Shown here piece after piece: positions 1,977 through 10,823 of a stretch of DNA of 11,428 nt. This DNA is from Solobacterium sp. Lineage in GTDB: Bacteria > Bacillota_I > Bacilli_A > Erysipelotrichales > Erysipelotrichaceae. The notes under the pieces are model-generated. The model was not told the DNA's origin. It did not search any database and was given only the letters and a program-made list of their open reading frames with translations. The first letter of the stretch is position 1; each line of letters starts with the position of its first letter. Both the position numbers and the translations under genes were made by a program. The stretch is taken from the NCBI GenBank assembly GCA_017475415.1, contig JAFVFM010000169.1, positions 1 to 11,428 on the forward strand, read 5' to 3'.

Positions 1977-1985
1977 AGGATGGTT

Positions 1986-1993
1986 AAAAGAGG
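1986..1993 (+). promoter_or_regulatory. Ribosome binding site fixing the first GTPase start
   Basis: AAAAGAGG ends 7 bases before the ATG at 2001. This favours that ATG over the in-frame upstream ATG at 1980, which would overlap the site and add seven residues before the conserved N-terminal strand. Confidence 0.65.
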
Positions 1994-2000
1994 TATAGAC

Positions 2001-3065
2001 ATGACAAAAGTAGATATTATTTCAGGCTTTTTAGGAGCTGGTAAAACAACATTAATTCAAAAATTATTAAAAGATGTATACCAAAATCAACAAATCGTAC
2101 TCGTAGAGAATGAATTTGGTGAAATTGGTATAGATGGTGGCTTTTTAAAAGAAGCTGGTATAGAAATTAGAGAAATCAATGGTGGTTGTGTATGTTGTAC
2201 ACTACAAGGTGATTTCCAAGTAGCCTTAACTAAAGTTGTAGAAGATTACCACCCAGATACTATTGTGATTGAACCATCAGGTGTAGGTAAGTTATCCGAT
2301 ATTTTAGCTATAGTACAATCTGTAGAAGGCTTAGAATTAAACAGTTATAGTACGGTAGTAGACGCTAAACGTTGTGCTATCTATCATAAGAATTTCAAAG
2401 AGTTCTTTAATGATCAAATTGAACATGCAGCTTGTGTAATCCTATCGAGAACACAAGAAGTAGATGATACCAAATTACAAGAAGCTGTAGATATCATTCA
2501 CGAACTAAACAGTGATGTACGTATTATCACTACCCCATGGGATGAATTAAGTGCTGAAAGTATCTACCAGGCTATGGAGGGCTCTTCTAATGGTTTTGTA
2601 GAGCTAGAAGAACATGAGCACGATCACGAGCATCATCATGATCATGAACATCATCACGAACATGAGCATGAACATGAACATGATCATCATCATCATCACG
2701 AACATGAAGATCCAAATGCAGGCTTATCTGAAGGTAATCGTATTCATTTGCCAGATCATGATCATGAGCATCACCATCATCACCACGGAGAACATGATGC
2801 AGATGAAGTATTCGATACAATAGGTATTGAAACCATTAATCGTTATAGCATCGAAGAAATTGAAAGTGCCCTTTCCAAATTAGGGAATCATATTGTACGA
2901 GCTAAAGGTATCGTACCTAACCATGATAGTTCTTGGATTTATTTCGATTATGTACCAGGTGATATTGATGTTCGTTCCGGGTCCCCTGCTTATACTGGCT
3001 TAATTACAGTTATAGGCCAAGAGATTAATATTGAAGAGATTAAAGAAATCTTTGGAGTACATTAA
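2001..3065 (+). CDS. G3E (CobW/COG0523) GTPase with His-rich metal-binding loop
   Basis: This 354-residue protein has a P-loop GFLGAGKTT at residues 9-17, the VENEFGEIGID switch region, the family metal-binding CxCC motif as CVCC at 63-66, and EPSG at 91-94. The usual guanine-specificity NKxD motif appears degenerate: SRTQ at about 149-152 sits in its place. Residues 205-265 hold 30 histidines in two clusters mixed with Asp and Glu. A CobW_C-type domain follows at about 270-354. Family members use GTP hydrolysis to insert or deliver metal ions; His-rich members are mostly tied to zinc, sometimes nickel or cobalt. Its stop codon is one base from the start of the second GTPase, so the two are almost certainly co-transcribed. 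The metal is inferred, not shown. Confidence 0.92.
   Translation: MTKVDIISGFLGAGKTTLIQKLLKDVYQNQQIVLVENEFGEIGIDGGFLKEAGIEIREINGGCVCCTLQGDFQVALTKVVEDYHPDTIVIEPSGVGKLSDILAIVQSVEGLELNSYSTVVDAKRCAIYHKNFKEFFNDQIEHAACVILSRTQEVDDTKLQEAVDIIHELNSDVRIITTPWDELSAESIYQAMEGSSNGFVELEEHEHDHEHHHDHEHHHEHEHEHEHDHHHHHEHEDPNAGLSEGNRIHLPDHDHEHHHHHHGEHDADEVFDTIGIETINRYSIEEIESALSKLGNHIVRAKGIVPNHDSSWIYFDYVPGDIDVRSGSPAYTGLITVIGQEINIEEIKEIFGVH
2613..2795 (+). repeat. Low-complexity CAT/CAC-rich tract encoding histidine clusters
   Basis: The tract inside the first GTPase encodes 20 histidines at 2613-2705 and 10 more at 2745-2795, alternating with GAA, GAG and GAT codons. Both CAT and CAC are used irregularly, so it looks like a selected protein region rather than a pure microsatellite. 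It could still change length by slippage. Confidence 0.85.
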
Positions 3066-3066
3066 T

Positions 3067-4008
3067 ATGGCCTGCCCTGTATATTTGTTTACTGGTTTCT
3101 TAGATAGTGGTAAAACCACATTAATTAAAGATACCTTAAATGACCCTAGCTTCATGAATGAGGGGGATCGCACTTTAATTCTTTGTTTTGAACAGGGTGA
3201 GGAAGCCTATGATGAACAATTTTTAGATGAACATAATGCCTTCATTGAATTCTTTCAAGCTAGTACGGAATTAACATTAGATAAAATCAAGGAATTAGAT
3301 GCTATATATCATCCTAATCAAGTATTTATTGAATATAATGGTACAGAATCCATTTCCCCTATTCTATTAGAAGAAATGCCATCTTACTGGCCATTAGTAC
3401 AAATCTTAACAACAGTAGATGCCACAACGTTTGAAATCTATATTAACGCAATGCGTTCCCTTCTCTTTGAACAATTACGTTACTCTGATACCATCATTGT
3501 GAATCGCTGTACAGAAGATATGTCTGGTTCTATGTTACGCGGTAATATTAAAGCCATTAACCGTAAGGCTCAAATTTATTATGAAGGTAAATTCGGTGAG
3601 GCTGCGAATTTAAAAAGTGGTTTATTACCATTTGATATCAATGCAGATATAATTGATATTAAAGATGATGATTTTGGCTTATGGTATATGGATGCAGTAG
3701 AAAATCCAGATAAATATAATGAAAAAGAAATCATCTTACGAGGCGCATATGCAGAAGATATTCCTGGCTATACACAAACCTTTGTCTTAGGTAGAAGAGC
3801 CATGGTATGTTGTGCGCAGGATACTAGCCTTTGTGGTATTACAGTAACTGGTGTAAAGATAGAAGAATTAAAGAAAGGTCAATGGGTAGAAGTACAAGGT
3901 ATATTACGTACTGTACCATTTGAAGATGGCACAAAGACGGTTGTCCTTTACGCAAATCGCGTTGCCCTATATCAAGCTCCACAAGATGAATTTGTTTATT
4001 TCAGTTAA
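3067..4008 (+). CDS. CobW-like GTPase fused to a YcgQ/DUF1980-type C-terminal domain
   Basis: This 313-residue protein starts at the ATG one base after the previous stop, with GGAG at 3054-3057 inside the upstream gene, so translation is probably coupled. The N-terminal part is a G3E-type NTPase: TGFLDSGKTTL at residues 9-19, IEYNG at 88-92 in place of IEPSG, and NRCTED at 146-151 in the guanine-specificity position. The CxCC motif is absent; the region near 60-70 reads EFFQASTELT. From about residue 193 to the end it resembles the C-terminal domain of YcgQ/TIGR03943 proteins: DDDF, a FVLGRRAMVCCAQD segment with CC at 248-249, WVEVQGIL, and a closing P-x-D-x-FVYF. YcgQ-type proteins pair with YcgR permeases and often sit near CobW proteins in zinc-limitation regulons. 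No permease lies in the window. Confidence 0.88.
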   Translation: MACPVYLFTGFLDSGKTTLIKDTLNDPSFMNEGDRTLILCFEQGEEAYDEQFLDEHNAFIEFFQASTELTLDKIKELDAIYHPNQVFIEYNGTESISPILLEEMPSYWPLVQILTTVDATTFEIYINAMRSLLFEQLRYSDTIIVNRCTEDMSGSMLRGNIKAINRKAQIYYEGKFGEAANLKSGLLPFDINADIIDIKDDDFGLWYMDAVENPDKYNEKEIILRGAYAEDIPGYTQTFVLGRRAMVCCAQDTSLCGITVTGVKIEELKKGQWVEVQGILRTVPFEDGTKTVVLYANRVALYQAPQDEFVYFS

Positions 4009-5544: not shown

Positions 5545-7221
5545 TTATAAGATTATTTCCTTCTCCACCTTACCTGCTTTTTCCTGTTTTAGGCATATTT
5601 TTAGCGTATCGCCTTTCTTTCCTTGTATAAGCCAAGTAACCTTTTTCTTCGCTTCAGCATTTTGCACTGTAGCATAATTCCCATAAAAATATGCACCAGT
5701 AATTGTCTGGCTATAACCAGCTAAATCCTTAATTTTGATTGTAGAATTTCCTTGTATTACATCTGCGTTTTCTAAAGTTACTTCTACTTCCTTAGCGACC
5801 TTAATCTTTTTAGCTGTATCCGTTAAATTCGTAGGCAAATAACCTCGATTACCAACAATAGCATTTACTAAGAAAGTATTCTCTGTAATTTCTTTTACTT
5901 CTATATCTTCTATCACTAATTTAGGCATAGCCTGCATAAAGCGTAAATAGAATTTTGTGGAATGTTCTATTTCTTCTAATAGATATGTTTCAGGAGGATT
6001 TTGCCATGTATGTTTATAATTAAAACCTCCTATTTCTACTTTGCCTAGGGTTGGATGATCAAATTCTTTCCATTCACTATAGTATTCTGGTGCATTTTCT
6101 TTTACCCATTTCATGCATGCATTAAAGCGTTCAATCGATTCTAATGGATGAGTATCCTTTTTGTGCCAATCGATAGGTTTACCTGCCTTTTTTGGTAAGT
6201 CCCAAAATTCTACTGTATAACAAGGTATACCTTGTGTTTCATACATCCAATCATCCAAGGCTCCACTATCTACTTCTTCTTGATCACTTAAGAAGGAATC
6301 AAAGATATTCAATGGCTCATATCCCATTTCTTCTTCGCCCATTTTCGCAATAGCTTTTAATATCTTCATATCAAAGCTAGGCGCGCTAGTAGAGGCCTTT
6401 GTGCCTGGTGGATAAAGCAATAAGCCGCCACTTGTATGGCCAATAGCAGCTCCGCCAATATTGGGATGAGCTAATACAAAATCTACGATAGCTTTGGTTT
6501 CTACATTACTTAAAGGATAAATACCCGCACCACTTTGTTTACCTTCCATCTTCCAACCATAAGGGAAATTTCGATTGAAGTCTAAGCCCCAAGAACTCTT
6601 TTTTCTTTTTAAATTTTCGCCATCCATTTCTTCAATTACGCCTTCACAGTAGATATCATAGAATTCTCCTTCTACATCACTTGGCTCTCTTAAAGTCATT
6701 ACCGATTTATCGTTAGAATCTTTCTTCCAAGCTCCATATGGTGTAACAAAGCGCATCATACGAATTACGCCGTCTCCGTCTATATCTTCTTCCTTTACAC
6801 CACCTTCTTCAACAATATAATCGCGATTAACAGATCTTAAACTATAAGGTGTTTGTAGGTAAGTTTCCGCACCGTCTACTGATACACGTGGAATAATATA
6901 GATAGTCATTGTATCTAATATTCTCGTTACTGTTTCCTCTTCTCCGTAATTCGTTAATAAATAATCTAATGTATGTAAAGCAGCCATAGAAGAAGTTACT
7001 TCACCTGCATGTATATTTCCATCTAAATACCATCCCGGTTTATCTAAAGCATTACCAGTCTTTTTATTCGTTAATATCGCAACATATTGATTCCGTTTTT
7101 CTTCACTAATACAATTGACTTCTAAGTCCATTAGTTCGCTATACTTTTTCGCTAAACCTTCTAGCATATCTTTCATTTCTTCATATGCATAATAATGGTC
7201 ATAAATATAACTTGTTTTCAT
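5545..7221 (-). CDS. M14 family zinc carboxypeptidase
   Basis: This 558-residue enzyme has the M14 zinc site HAGE (His71, Glu74) with a later histidine in GHTSGG (His262). It also has the substrate-carboxylate Arg region DFNRNFP (Arg217) and the catalytic glutamate in YTVEFWD (Glu338). A DIDGDG loop followed by MMRF (about 147-158) is typical of one bacterial M14 subgroup. The region from about 430 to the end is a separate beta-rich-looking extension of unknown role. No signal peptide or membrane segment is seen, so it probably removes C-terminal amino acids from peptides in the cytoplasm. Its ribosome binding site overlaps the stop codon of the ATPase gene eight bases upstream, making it the last cistron of the transporter operon. 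Confidence 0.9.
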   Translation of the reverse strand: MKTSYIYDHYYAYEEMKDMLEGLAKKYSELMDLEVNCISEEKRNQYVAILTNKKTGNALDKPGWYLDGNIHAGEVTSSMAALHTLDYLLTNYGEEETVTRILDTMTIYIIPRVSVDGAETYLQTPYSLRSVNRDYIVEEGGVKEEDIDGDGVIRMMRFVTPYGAWKKDSNDKSVMTLREPSDVEGEFYDIYCEGVIEEMDGENLKRKKSSWGLDFNRNFPYGWKMEGKQSGAGIYPLSNVETKAIVDFVLAHPNIGGAAIGHTSGGLLLYPPGTKASTSAPSFDMKILKAIAKMGEEEMGYEPLNIFDSFLSDQEEVDSGALDDWMYETQGIPCYTVEFWDLPKKAGKPIDWHKKDTHPLESIERFNACMKWVKENAPEYYSEWKEFDHPTLGKVEIGGFNYKHTWQNPPETYLLEEIEHSTKFYLRFMQAMPKLVIEDIEVKEITENTFLVNAIVGNRGYLPTNLTDTAKKIKVAKEVEVTLENADVIQGNSTIKIKDLAGYSQTITGAYFYGNYATVQNAEAKKKVTWLIQGKKGDTLKICLKQEKAGKVEKEIIL

Positions 7222-7229
7222 AAATACTC

Positions 7230-7973
7230 CTACAACACTTGGGATAAGAATTCTTTCGTTCTTTCATTTTTAGGGTTAGAGAAGAACTCTTCAGGTGTTC
7301 CTTCTTCTGCAATTATGCCTTCATCAATAAAGAGTATACGATCGCTGATTTCTCTAGCGAAATTCATTTCATGTGTAACAATCACACACGTCATGCCTGT
7401 TTCTGCTAATTGTTTAATGACTTCTAATACACCTTTTACCATTTCTGGATCTAAGGCGGATGTTGGCTCATCAAATAACATCACATCTGGCTCCATTGCC
7501 ATAGCCCGAACTATCGCAAGTCTTTGTTTTTGACCACCGGAGAGCTTACGTGGATATTCATTCGCCTTGTCTTCTAAGCCTACTTGTTTCAATAATTCCA
7601 TCGCCTTAGCTTTCGCATCTGCTTCTGCTACTTTCTTTTCCAGCATCGGTGCTAAAGTAATATTATCTAGTACCGTTAAATGTGGGAATACATTAAATTG
7701 CTGGAATACCATACCTATCTTCTGCCTATGTACATCTAAATCTGTACTTTTGGCATCCAATACATTTCCTTCAAAAATAACTTCTCCACTAGTAGGTTCT
7801 TCTAATAAATTTAAACAACGTAAGAAAGTTGACTTACCACCACCAGAAGGGCCGATGATGGAAACCACTTCACCTTTATATATTGTTTCACTAATCCCTT
7901 TTAATACTTCGAGATCATTGAAATTCTTTTTTAAATTCTTCGTTTCAATTAATGGTATCTTTTGATCAGTCAC
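7230..7973 (-). CDS. Amino-acid ABC transporter ATP-binding protein (HisP/GlnQ type)
   Basis: This 247-residue nucleotide-binding subunit shows all ABC motifs: Walker [10 protein letters not shown] (residues 41-49), Q-loop at VFQQF (89-93), signature LSGGQKQR (144-151), Walker [14 protein letters not shown] (164-176) and the H-loop VTHEM (199-203). It would form a dimer on the inner membrane face and power the permease encoded just upstream. The start codon is GTG at 7973. It overlaps the end of the permease gene by 8 bases, with AAAGAGG upstream inside that gene, so translation is probably coupled. Its TAG stop overlaps the ribosome binding site of the carboxypeptidase gene. Confidence 0.96.
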
Positions 7974-8631
7974 TTACAGCCAACCTCTTTTCTAATCGTT
8001 TTACTAAGAAAGATAATACAATCGTCAAAAACAAATAGATCCCTGCAATAATGAATAATGGTTGCCAAGAAAGATATTTGTTCGCAAGAATTGTTCGTGT
8101 ATACATTAGTTCATATAACATTAGTGTACCAGCCAAGGAAGTCTCTTTAATCATCGCTATATATTCATTCGCTAAAGCAGGAAGAATATTCTTAATCGCT
8201 TGTGGTAAGATAATCTTCGTCATTGTATGTTTCGCACTTAATCCTAATGAGCGAGCAGCTTCACTTTGGCCTGGATCTACAGAATTAATTCCACCCCTAA
8301 TGATTTCTGCTACATATGCACTAGAGTTTAAGATTAGCGCTAATACTACTGTTCCTTCTTTACCAATTACATCTAAAGCAGGAAATACTAATGGTAAAAA
8401 GAAGTAAGCAATATAGAGTTGTACTAATAAAGGTGTTCCTCTTAATACATTGACATAGATTAGCGACAAAGTATGTAATATTTTATTCTTAGATAATTGT
8501 AATAAAGCAATTAAAGCGCCTAATATCGTACCACCTGAAACAGCTATAAAAGCATATTTCAAGGTACCAAACATACCTTGTAGGAAGATTGGCCAATATT
8601 CAAGTAATACTTCAATAATCCCTGGTCCCAT
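7966..8631 (-). CDS. Amino-acid ABC transporter permease (HisM/GlnP type)
   Basis: This 221-residue polytopic membrane protein has about five hydrophobic segments. It has the polar amino-acid permease signature RGTPLLVQL near residue 64 and the cytoplasmic EAA loop [20 protein letters not shown] that contacts the ATPase. Length and motifs fit the HisM/GlnP family; only one permease gene is present, so it would act as a homodimer. It starts 2 bases after the binding-protein stop, with AAGGGAA at the end of that gene as ribosome binding site. Substrate is inferred to be a polar amino acid; the T-box specifier hints at arginine. Confidence 0.95.
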
Positions 8632-8633
8632 TA

Positions 8634-9596
8634 TTATTTCCCTTCTAATGTAAGAATTTGATCTTCTACATACATTTGTTGAAGAGAAGAAGCTTGCGCA
8701 ACAATATGCTTACCAACAAAGTCCTTTAATTCTTTATATTCATTAACCTTATCACTAGGAACAATTAAAGTATGGAATGTTACTTCATCATCCCCTCTAT
8801 AGCCAGTAGATAATTCAAATGTTTCTGCTCTATCTTTTTTCCAGCCAAAGCCCGAGAATGCAATATCTACCTTGCCTGTATCTACAGCTGTTAATACAGC
8901 ATTGAAATCCATTGTTTCTATCTTTAATTTCACACCTAAGCTATCCGCTACATATTTCGCTAACATCATTTCACAGCCATATACTGTACCATCTTCGGTA
9001 ATGAATTCATTGGCTGGGTAGTCAGGGGATGTCGCTATGACTAATTCACCCTTTTCTAATACAGACTTTAATACACCCTCTGCCTTACTTGTATCAATAG
9101 TAGGCATATTTAAATCACTTGTATCCAACAAATAAAGATAAGTATCATCGATTTTAGCATCAGAGAATACAGGTGTATCTCCTACAATTTCTTTTGCCTT
9201 ATCGTCATCTGTTCCAGCTTGTATTTTGGCTATCGCAGTCCATAAAGTATAGTAATCATTTTCTACAGCTGTTTTAATACTTGTATTCACTGCTTCAATT
9301 AAGCTTGCTTCACCTTTTTTCGCAATGGCTACATTACCTTCAAAGTCACCATATTGGCTTAAATCAAAATTGATACCAGACATAGCAAACTTACCTTCAG
9401 ATTGATCAACATAATTCTGTGCTGTCGTTCCATCTAACGCCACAGCATCACATTTACCAGTAGCTAAAGATAAGATGGCTTGATCTAAGCTCGTTACTAA
9501 TTCAAAGTTAGTCTTTGTAGAAGAAGTAGCATTACCACATCCTACTAGAAGTATTGCCATTAAACTTACAGCTATTTTTGTATATAATTTTTTCAT
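8634..9596 (-). CDS. Amino-acid-binding lipoprotein with circularly permuted SBP_bac_3 fold
   Basis: This 320-residue protein starts with a lipoprotein signal peptide (lipobox LVGC, Cys20). Residues about 31-127 match the C-terminal half of an SBP_bac_3 protein: a TSLDQAILSLATGKCDAVALD strand-helix pattern, then GNVAIAKKG and the closing helix with Trp119. A linker follows (128-180). Residues 181-314 match the N-terminal half: GELVIATSPDYPANEF, MDFNAVL, GKVDIAFSG, the ligand-carboxylate arginine in KKDRAETFELS, and VGKHIVAQASSLQQ. The two halves add up to one complete domain of usual size in swapped order, with both ligand-binding halves kept. It should deliver an amino acid to the downstream permease and ATPase. 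It begins at an ATGA overlap with the small upstream ORF and also has its own AAAGAGG site. Confidence 0.9.
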   Translation of the reverse strand: MKKLYTKIAVSLMAILLVGCGNATSSTKTNFELVTSLDQAILSLATGKCDAVALDGTTAQNYVDQSEGKFAMSGINFDLSQYGDFEGNVAIAKKGEASLIEAVNTSIKTAVENDYYTLWTAIAKIQAGTDDDKAKEIVGDTPVFSDAKIDDTYLYLLDTSDLNMPTIDTSKAEGVLKSVLEKGELVIATSPDYPANEFITEDGTVYGCEMMLAKYVADSLGVKLKIETMDFNAVLTAVDTGKVDIAFSGFGWKKDRAETFELSTGYRGDDEVTFHTLIVPSDKVNEYKELKDFVGKHIVAQASSLQQMYVEDQILTLEGK

Positions 9597-9670
9597 TTCT
9601 TATTCCTCTTTCTTTCTCTTTCTTTTTTTGTTACTGCATCTTGTACTACTTCAATTCGTCGGACTTTCAT
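9593..9670 (-). CDS. Small basic ORF (25 aa) leading the transporter operon
   Basis: A 25-codon ORF starts ATG at 9670 and begins MKVRRIEVVQDAVTKK; the rest is Arg, Lys, Glu and Asn. It contains five arginine and six lysine codons. Its ribosome binding site AAGGAGGG (9686-9679, 8 bases before ATG) is the best in the window. Its TGA stop overlaps the ATG of the binding-protein gene as ATGA. It lies directly after the T-box terminator, so it is the first translated cistron when the leader reads through. I do not recognise the peptide. It may be a leader peptide that couples translation, or a small regulatory or RNA-binding protein. Confidence 0.6.
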   Translation of the reverse strand: MKVRRIEVVQDAVTKKERERKRNKK

Positions 9671-9690: not shown

Positions 9691-9719
9691 AAAAAAGCCG
9701 TCTCCATTCCAGAGACGAC
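9691..9719 (-). terminator. T-box-controlled terminator hairpin
   Basis: On the - strand GTCGTCTC (9719-9712) pairs with GAGACGGC (9704-9697) around a seven-base loop, with one G-U pair, followed by six T. It is mutually exclusive with the antiterminator formed by the adjacent T-box core. Confidence 0.9.
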
Positions 9720-9915
9720 ATAATCGCGGTACCACACTGGTTATTATGAAAAATCATAATCACTCTTATCCTTAACGCAGAATATACGTCTTATCCTACT
9801 TAGGTTCAGATAAGCATCTCCCAAATGCGCTTCTTCGTAACTGTTGCCGCTAGACTTCCACTCTGTTCTAGCTCGCTAATGGACTATTACGAATACTCTT
9901 TCGTTCATTGATTTT
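9691..9915 (-). promoter_or_regulatory. T-box riboswitch leader (tRNA-sensing)
   Basis: The 14-base T-box core AGTGTGGTACCGCG is present at 9738-9725 on the - strand, followed by a terminator. Upstream, Stem I is recognisable: AGTA of the specifier-loop E motif (9897-9894), a perfect TTCGTAA/TTACGAA helix (9893-9887 with 9840-9834), AGCGAG of the AG-bulge type (9877-9872), and a distal CTAGA/TCTAG hairpin with a GTGGAAG-containing loop. On the 3' side of the specifier loop the sequence reads GAAGCGCA. A TTATGA/TCATAA hairpin (9759-9744) lies before the antiterminator. Uncharged cognate tRNA would stabilise the antiterminator and switch on the transporter operon. CGC (Arg, 9829-9827), followed by the expected purine, is the best specifier; GCG (Ala) one base earlier is the alternative. 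Confidence 0.93.
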
Positions 9916-9920
9916 TAAAC

Positions 9921-10040: not shown

Positions 10041-10117
10041 CTCCCGGTACCTCAGATGGATAGAGGGTTCGCCTCCTAAGCGAAACGCCAGCGGTTCGAA
10101 TCCGCTCCGGGAGGCCA
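10041..10117 (+). tRNA. tRNA-Arg (anticodon CCT)
   Basis: A full cloverleaf can be drawn by hand. The acceptor is CTCCCGG/CCGGGAG and the D stem CCTC/GAGG. The anticodon stem TTCGC/GCGAA carries the loop CTCCTAA, with anticodon CCT at 10075-10077. The variable loop has five bases, and the T arm is AGCGG-TTCGAAT-CCGCT. Discriminator G and an encoded CCA end at 10117. It reads AGG codons. A promoter-like -10 lies upstream and a terminator downstream, so it is a single-gene unit, divergent from the T-box operon. Confidence 0.97.
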
Positions 10118-10366: not shown

Positions 10367-10823
10367 TGAAACCTATAGCCACAAATGCAGATGACCGCAT
10401 TCCATCTGAATTTAGCAGACGCTTCTGCCAAATTACAGGATGCTGTACATCTGTATTCATTTTGGCAGATGTATCTGCCAAAACAGGTTTATCCACTTCT
10501 GCGTCCTTGTTATCAAGGGGCGCCCACTCTTCATAGAACATGCGCATATTTCTAAGGTTTCTCGCCGAGAATCCTCTTTAGCCAGGTAATTCCTTTTGGA
10601 GCCTATCGCTTATTGCATCAATAGCACCTGTCCCCCAATATCCAGCTCTGGAATTCTCGGAAATATATTTCCCAATGCCATAATAAAGCATTAGCTGCTT
10701 TTCGTTTGCAGACTTTGCAGCATCATACTGGCTTTGAAGGATTGCTGTTTTAATTACAGAAACTGCTTCTCTGTAATTAGTAATCTCGTTCGTTTTATCT
10801 ATTTTTATCTCATTCTTATTCAT
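10359..10823 (-). pseudogene. DUF1016/YhcG N-terminal-type gene, interrupted and truncated
   Basis: From ATG 10823 (GAGG eight bases upstream) the frame encodes a helical DUF1016_N-like region: VIKTAILQSQYDAAKSANEK, LYYGIGKYISENSRAGYWG, AIDAISDRLQKELPG. An in-frame TAA at 10580-10578 then interrupts it. Translation of the same frame past the stop gives RGFSARNLRNMRMFYEEWAP, exactly what normally follows in this family, so a single T-to-A change of a TTA Leu codon would explain the stop. The frame ends at 10359 after AFVAIGF, where relatives go on to a PD-(D/E)XK nuclease domain. Family members occur in mobile elements and some transposase-like or defence contexts. The gene is inactive as written. 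Confidence 0.78.

Follow-up and report, generated by a model that had tools for sequence, protein, structure and literature searches.

An apparent circular permutation in the substrate-binding lipoprotein of a predicted amino-acid importer operon from Solobacterium and its relatives

The operon considered here lies on the minus strand of an 11,428-nucleotide contig of a Solobacterium species (JAFVFM010000169.1, assembly GCA_017475415.1), the whole of which we call the window. It comprises, from its 5′ end, a T-box leader, a short leader open reading frame (ORF), the gene for a lipoprotein with a substrate-binding protein (SBP) domain of the SBP_bac_3 family, and genes for an ATP-binding cassette (ABC) permease, its ATPase and an M14 zinc carboxypeptidase (Table 1). 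The lipoprotein ORF, whose strand and limits are those given in a preliminary description of this DNA, begins with ATG and displays the lipobox LVGC, with its cysteine at Cys20. Judged from its sequence, the mature part of the product is an amino-acid-binding protein of the SBP_bac_3 family in circularly permuted form. We put at roughly 0.93 the probability that this is a real, inherited permutation of single origin and that the lipoprotein serves as the binding subunit for the ABC importer whose genes lie beside its own.

The Pfam model PF00497 (SBP_bac_3) matches residues 185–268 only (E 8.3e-20; 71.3 bits against a curated cut-off of 26.4). With a profile built from 30 relatives of normal order, residues 26–132 match profile positions 188–294 (137 bits) and residues 146–318 match positions 12–186 (287 bits): two complementary, swapped matches without overlap, as the preliminary description had proposed in speaking of reversed halves. 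Rearranged to the normal order, the same residues yield a single match to positions 12–294 with 437 bits, compared with 418.6 bits in all for the protein as it stands; the domain is therefore all but complete, with no part of it occurring twice. Both of its halves are thus present, and the normal order along the chain is not found. The swapped pair recurs in all 34 permuted mature proteins given to the profile search, and hence we regard them as a permuted variant rather than regular SBP_bac_3 members; the other three of the 37 distinct permuted sequences lay outside that search, one being cut by a contig end (L032) and two missed by the lipobox pattern (L013 and L037). That 30 of 30 normal-order proteins are colinear with the profile follows from its having been built from them. 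A profile of the permuted family likewise matches the PDB chain 4h5f twice in swapped order, with positions 158–296 falling on chain residues 5–142 and positions 6–107 on chain residues 140–237.

The anatomy of the change can be followed at the junctions, which we placed by eye in the permuted proteins. In the near normal-order relatives the lipobox and a spacer are followed, in 13 of 17 cases, by KTGxxS and TYAYLLDTTDLxKPELDL or similar, and then by the N half, a lobe-2 loop such as EDQIIALDPNGGTELEMV and the C half, with WYAEAKKQAGIE as an example of the tail that closes the chain. A permuted protein goes from its lipobox through a short spacer directly into KTELELV or similar; its C-terminal tail continues as QSGTEDE, after which come some 18 new residues that include a predicted helix, then TYLYLLDTTDL and the N half, and the stop comes after EDQILALEGE or similar. 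The stretch between the halves of the window protein is accordingly made up of the last residues of the former C-terminal tail, a new piece of about 18 residues (about 133–150) and the former N-terminal tail (DTYLYLLDTSDL); the linker of some 50 residues described earlier thus exists as a segment between folded halves, but is only in part new. The protein itself ends in EDQILTLEGK, ten residues beyond the QQMYV after which the stop had been placed. The junctions therefore indicate that the new chain ends lie in a loop of lobe 2 and that the old ones, both in lobe 1, have been joined, the lobes being those we assume from the order of the elements and general knowledge of the SBP fold. On this model the chain would start with the signal peptide and lipid anchor, continue with the strands and helices of the former second half, pass through a linker joining the old C-terminus to the old N-terminus, and end in the newly opened loop; the two-lobe clamp and the ligand residues would be kept, and the lipid anchor would have moved from lobe 1 to lobe 2.

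AlphaFold predicts a two-lobed fold with its elements in rotated order, the outcome opposite to the one that the preliminary description had named as refuting. Compared by order of elements, the models of the permuted and normal forms are both confident and hold the same elements in rotation. In principle, the C half of one molecule could complete the N half of another in a domain-swapped dimer or higher oligomer, for which there is a precedent in circularly permuted constructs of ribose-binding protein with swapped elements, as described in PMC10601554. The single-chain model, with a predicted template modelling score (pTM) of 0.82 and block means of the predicted local distance difference test (pLDDT) of 87–96 over residues 101–160, which hold the linker, argues against such a swap, and we consider it improbable.

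Both Arg256 of KKDRAE and the ligand Asp are invariant in 34 aligned permuted proteins, Arg256 being aligned with an Arg of TmArgBP and Asp55 with the Asp of DAVVLD in that protein; presumably, the former holds the ligand carboxylate and the latter its amino group. The lipobox pattern is found in 34 of 36 permuted ORFs, the other two (L013 and L037) reading YACS and FGCA. Mean column identity over the 34 permuted sequences is 76%, and the median dN/dS among usable pairs is 0.17, well under 1; selection on the permuted gene is purifying. Thus, the earlier impressions of a retained ligand arginine and a good signal peptide are borne out, and the selection and the predicted fold accord with the impression of a gene that looks functional. 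Close relatives with normal order and a longer gene had been named as a sign to the contrary: normal-order relatives do exist, and their mature proteins are of ordinary length (277–321 residues versus 299–319 for the permuted ones).

A scan of 84,980 species genomes gave 59 loci, to which the whole genomes of relatives added more; once 12 duplicates had been set aside, sorting the resulting 82 loci by the order of the halves left 37 permuted and 31 normal-order sequences, all distinct. Many of the records come from the ruminant gut, under labels such as Solobacterium, Erysipelotrichaceae and Clostridiales. Full-length permuted matches occur in 17 of 70 genomes of the genus (an eighteenth, in G017, is cut by a contig end) and in 32 of 315 genomes of the order, with two more cut by contig ends, all in three genera (g1, g33 and g59) of one family; among 392 genomes drawn from the phylum only the window's own has one. 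The swapped order is thus shared by full-length homologues in many separate records. A chimeric contig with halves joined in the wrong order might be suspected in a genome as fragmented as that of the window (339 contigs, 70% complete). However, that reading is refuted by the many assemblies with the permuted order: the 37 distinct sequences each lie in one open frame, and the other 33 aligned sequences diverge from the window protein by 17–37% of positions, with the low dN/dS given above; we allow an assembly artefact only the most negligible of chances.

In quick trees of 67 sequences with their halves put in normal order (normal-order outgroups, no bootstrap), 36 permuted rows form one clade with a Shimodaira–Hasegawa-like approximate likelihood ratio test (SH-aLRT) support of 99, whether both halves are joined or the N or C half is used alone, and both halves group with the same normal-order relatives. 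The normal-order orthologues show 59–69% identity over the N half. At E 1e-20, a normal-order match of at least 60% is absent from all 17 permuted genomes of the genus, which is what replacement by a permuted descendant would leave. Seven of the 17 also hold a normal-order paralogue at 54–57%, situated near the permuted gene in L010 and L033 and directly next to it in L010, so that one might take the permuted gene for a decayed or idle remnant, transcribed into a product that neither binds nor transports. Against this stand the purifying selection, the column identity and the invariant ligand Arg and Asp, as well as the remaining ten genomes: nine lack any normal-order match at E 1e-20 and one (G029) has a match of 38%, among metagenome-assembled genomes (MAGs) that are incomplete. 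We therefore hold a remnant to be very improbable.

Separately, a second SBP, a paralogue of normal order that has lost the ligand Asp, reading LATSCS in place of ALDGTT, is encoded in L010 (4902–5903), L033 (1285–2304) and L052–L054, and may therefore bind something else.

The permuted gene retains its operon position, as had been noted from the window: the permease follows directly in 34 of the 37 permuted loci and in all 17 of the near normal-order ones, and the normal-order orthologues occupy the same slot before permease and ATPase. The genetic link of the SBP to an amino acid permease and ATPase is thus present. The full order of SBP, permease, ATPase and M14 peptidase is seen in 26 of 37 permuted and 9 of 17 near normal-order loci; among those without it, L030, L038, L071 and seven normal-order loci end too early to judge.

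Table 1. Coordinates of the operon features in the window
Feature	Position	Strand	Basis or remark
T-box leader (RF00230, 125 bits)	9708..9917	−	specifier read as CGC (Arg)
Short leader ORF, MKVRRIEVVQDAVTKKERERKRNKK	9593..9670	−	strong ribosome binding site; stop overlaps SBP start codon (ATGA)
Apparently circularly permuted SBP_bac_3 lipoprotein gene, 320 aa	8634..9596	−	ORF, Pfam and relatives' profile matches
Signal peptide and lipobox, residues 1–20, MKKLYTKIAVSLMAILLVGC	9537..9596	−	lipobox pattern
Former C-terminal half, residues 27–132, holds Asp55	9201..9518	−	profile 188–294 of normal-order relatives
New linker, about residues 133–150, part of conserved predicted helix	9147..9200	−	limits by eye
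Old N-terminal tail (DTYLYLLDTSDLNMPTID) and former N-terminal half, residues 151–318, Arg256 of KKDRAE	8643..9146	−	
ABC permease (BPD_transp_1; HEQRo_perm_3TM)	7966..8631	−	two bases past SBP stop
ABC ATPase	7230..7973	−	closest to amino-acid ABC ATPases
M14 zinc carboxypeptidase	5545..7221	−	next gene here and in many relatives

The sequences upstream bear on the ligand. Of the loci scanned, 15 of 17 with a permuted SBP and 11 of 19 with a normal-order one have a T-box (RF00230) ahead of that gene, and the specifier region of the T-box reads GAA-N-CGC-A, with N variable, in 11 of the 15 and 10 of the 11, respectively; CGC is an arginine codon. The placement of the codon is supported by a T-box of L033 ahead of another gene, which reads GAA-A-UCC-A, a serine codon, and is followed by what we take from its translation to be a seryl-tRNA synthetase. 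The nearest solved structures include arginine-binding proteins, and together with the CGC reading this points to arginine as the likeliest ligand. As an observation in its own right, the T-box with GAACGTGC in its specifier region upstream of the permuted SBP in L011, L027, L037 and L039 looks different, as if the leader had been exchanged.

Between T-box and SBP sits the leader ORF, with two to four Arg codons in a run within its first eight codons, including CGA CGA. It occupies the same position in permuted loci (L005–L012, L015–L019, L021–L031 and L071) and before normal-order genes (L033, L043, L047, L048, L051–L054, L077–L079, L081 and L082), and an overlap of its stop with the SBP start (ATGA) is shared by ten loci. 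Our count finds it in 26 of the 33 permuted loci, with L014 (too little upstream sequence), L013, L032 and L037 left out, and in 9 of the 17 near normal-order ones; 4 of 5 paralogue loci have it, and none of 8 far loci does. With a T-box and an arginine leader peptide in succession, the leader would act as a double arginine sensor; alternatively, CGACGA might be kept for RNA pairing. The window also has a tRNA-Arg gene (anticodon CCT; 10041–10117, plus strand) close to this operon, which is apparently responsive to tRNA-Arg.

For the origin of the permuted gene, we infer the route suggested in the preliminary description, namely tandem duplication and fusion with subsequent loss of the outer halves, which remains plausible, with no intermediate seen in the loci examined. 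One deletion may have fallen between Lys-Thr stretches that resemble each other in the N-tail (KTGxxSTYAYL) and the lobe-2 loop (KTELE). Lys-Thr codons followed by G are common to spacer and loop in three (L046, L075 and L076) of ten near normal-order genes listed, a mere hint that an in-frame deletion between short repeats would be permitted. The odd candidate for an intermediate, L092, proved to be an ordinary normal-order gene. The lack of a tandem or C-N-C intermediate would suit other routes, such as a split of the gene in the lobe-2 loop with re-fusion in reverse or re-insertion of an excised circle. However, no split forms occur in the 82 loci, where N-only pieces, besides the distant SBP L002, are cut by contig ends (L040 and L073); both halves group with the same set of normal-order relatives; and the two-SBP clusters of L010 and L033 show that material for a duplication is present. 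We therefore consider these other routes possible but doubtful.

Several points weigh against the account of one inherited permutation in a working importer. No duplication intermediate was found in the loci examined. Every named record in the species-genome scan is a MAG or uncultured assembly, and thus no isolate carrier is known to us. The permuted model was built on 34 related sequences, and one of the five AlphaFold models has a mean pLDDT of 69. Four of the 15 permuted T-boxes carry GAACGTGC, in which the codon can be read as CGU (Arg) or GUG (Val). The fetched stretches of L005, L015, L034, L036 and L037 hold no M14 gene, and L010, L033 and L035 deviate from the usual gene order, with the permuted gene placed differently. 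Finally, the permuted operons do not form one clade in the permease tree (two changes needed, many forks open), and hence subunits may have been exchanged.

The preliminary description knew of no natural permutation in this transporter class, and here it has to be corrected. TpMglB-2 (Tp0684) of Treponema pallidum, placed in “cluster Bc”, is a crystallised natural circular permutation of a lipid-anchored SBP, and has relatives with the same topology; unlike the present case it has a type I, cluster B sugar-binding fold with a permuted N lobe, and its two parts are 26% and 13% identical to EcMglB (all as reported in PMC4990184), whereas here the normal-order orthologues stay within the identity range given above and share the operon slot. 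Similarly, glycine-betaine-binding proteins are circular permutants of one another, with less than 24% identity between the forms and a different ligand family, according to PMC2395249. Normal-order SBP_bac_3 proteins such as TmArgBP, 4h5f, HisJ and LAO share with the permuted ones the strands and helices of the domain, the ligand Arg and Asp and the operon with permease and ATPase, and differ in that here the halves are reversed, with the chain opened in, and the lipid anchor placed on, what is assigned as lobe 2. The PDB entries behind the glycine-betaine comparison are presumably OpuAC and ProX.

Natural SBP permutation is thus already known as a kind; what is new, as far as our searches go, is a permutation in amino-acid family 3 that forms one clade and has close normal-order orthologues in the same slot. 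It appears to be a rather recent case in the amino-acid branch of SBPs. One could go further and propose that a young, single permutation turned the arginine-binding lipoprotein around in a working operon, shifted its anchor to lobe 2 from lobe 1, and went on to replace the normal-order gene in part of the family because the new tethering aids delivery to the permease, which would make it the first such event among family 3 SBPs and the first in any SBP to have close normal-order orthologues for direct comparison; taken as a whole, we offer this tentatively and think it rather unlikely. The natural SBP permutations that we found in print are too diverged from their normal-order forms to allow a reconstruction of the event or a measurement of its effect. 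In the present family, permuted and normal-order orthologues are 59–69% identical in the N half and share slot and partner genes, and what the permutation and the move of the anchor do to folding, ligand affinity and transport can therefore be tested directly. Moreover, the lobe-2 loop is a place where nature tolerates new chain ends, which could be of use for SBP-based biosensors, and a Pfam model sees only part of such permuted proteins.

Elsewhere in the window, two adjacent genes (1980–4008, plus strand) code for CobW-like GTPases; the first has a very His-rich stretch and the second a TIGR03943-like part at its end, with every NCBIfam match below its curated cut-off. An 81-residue ORF (10578–10823, minus strand) matches only the first part of DUF1016_N (2–61 of 137) and is probably a fragment.
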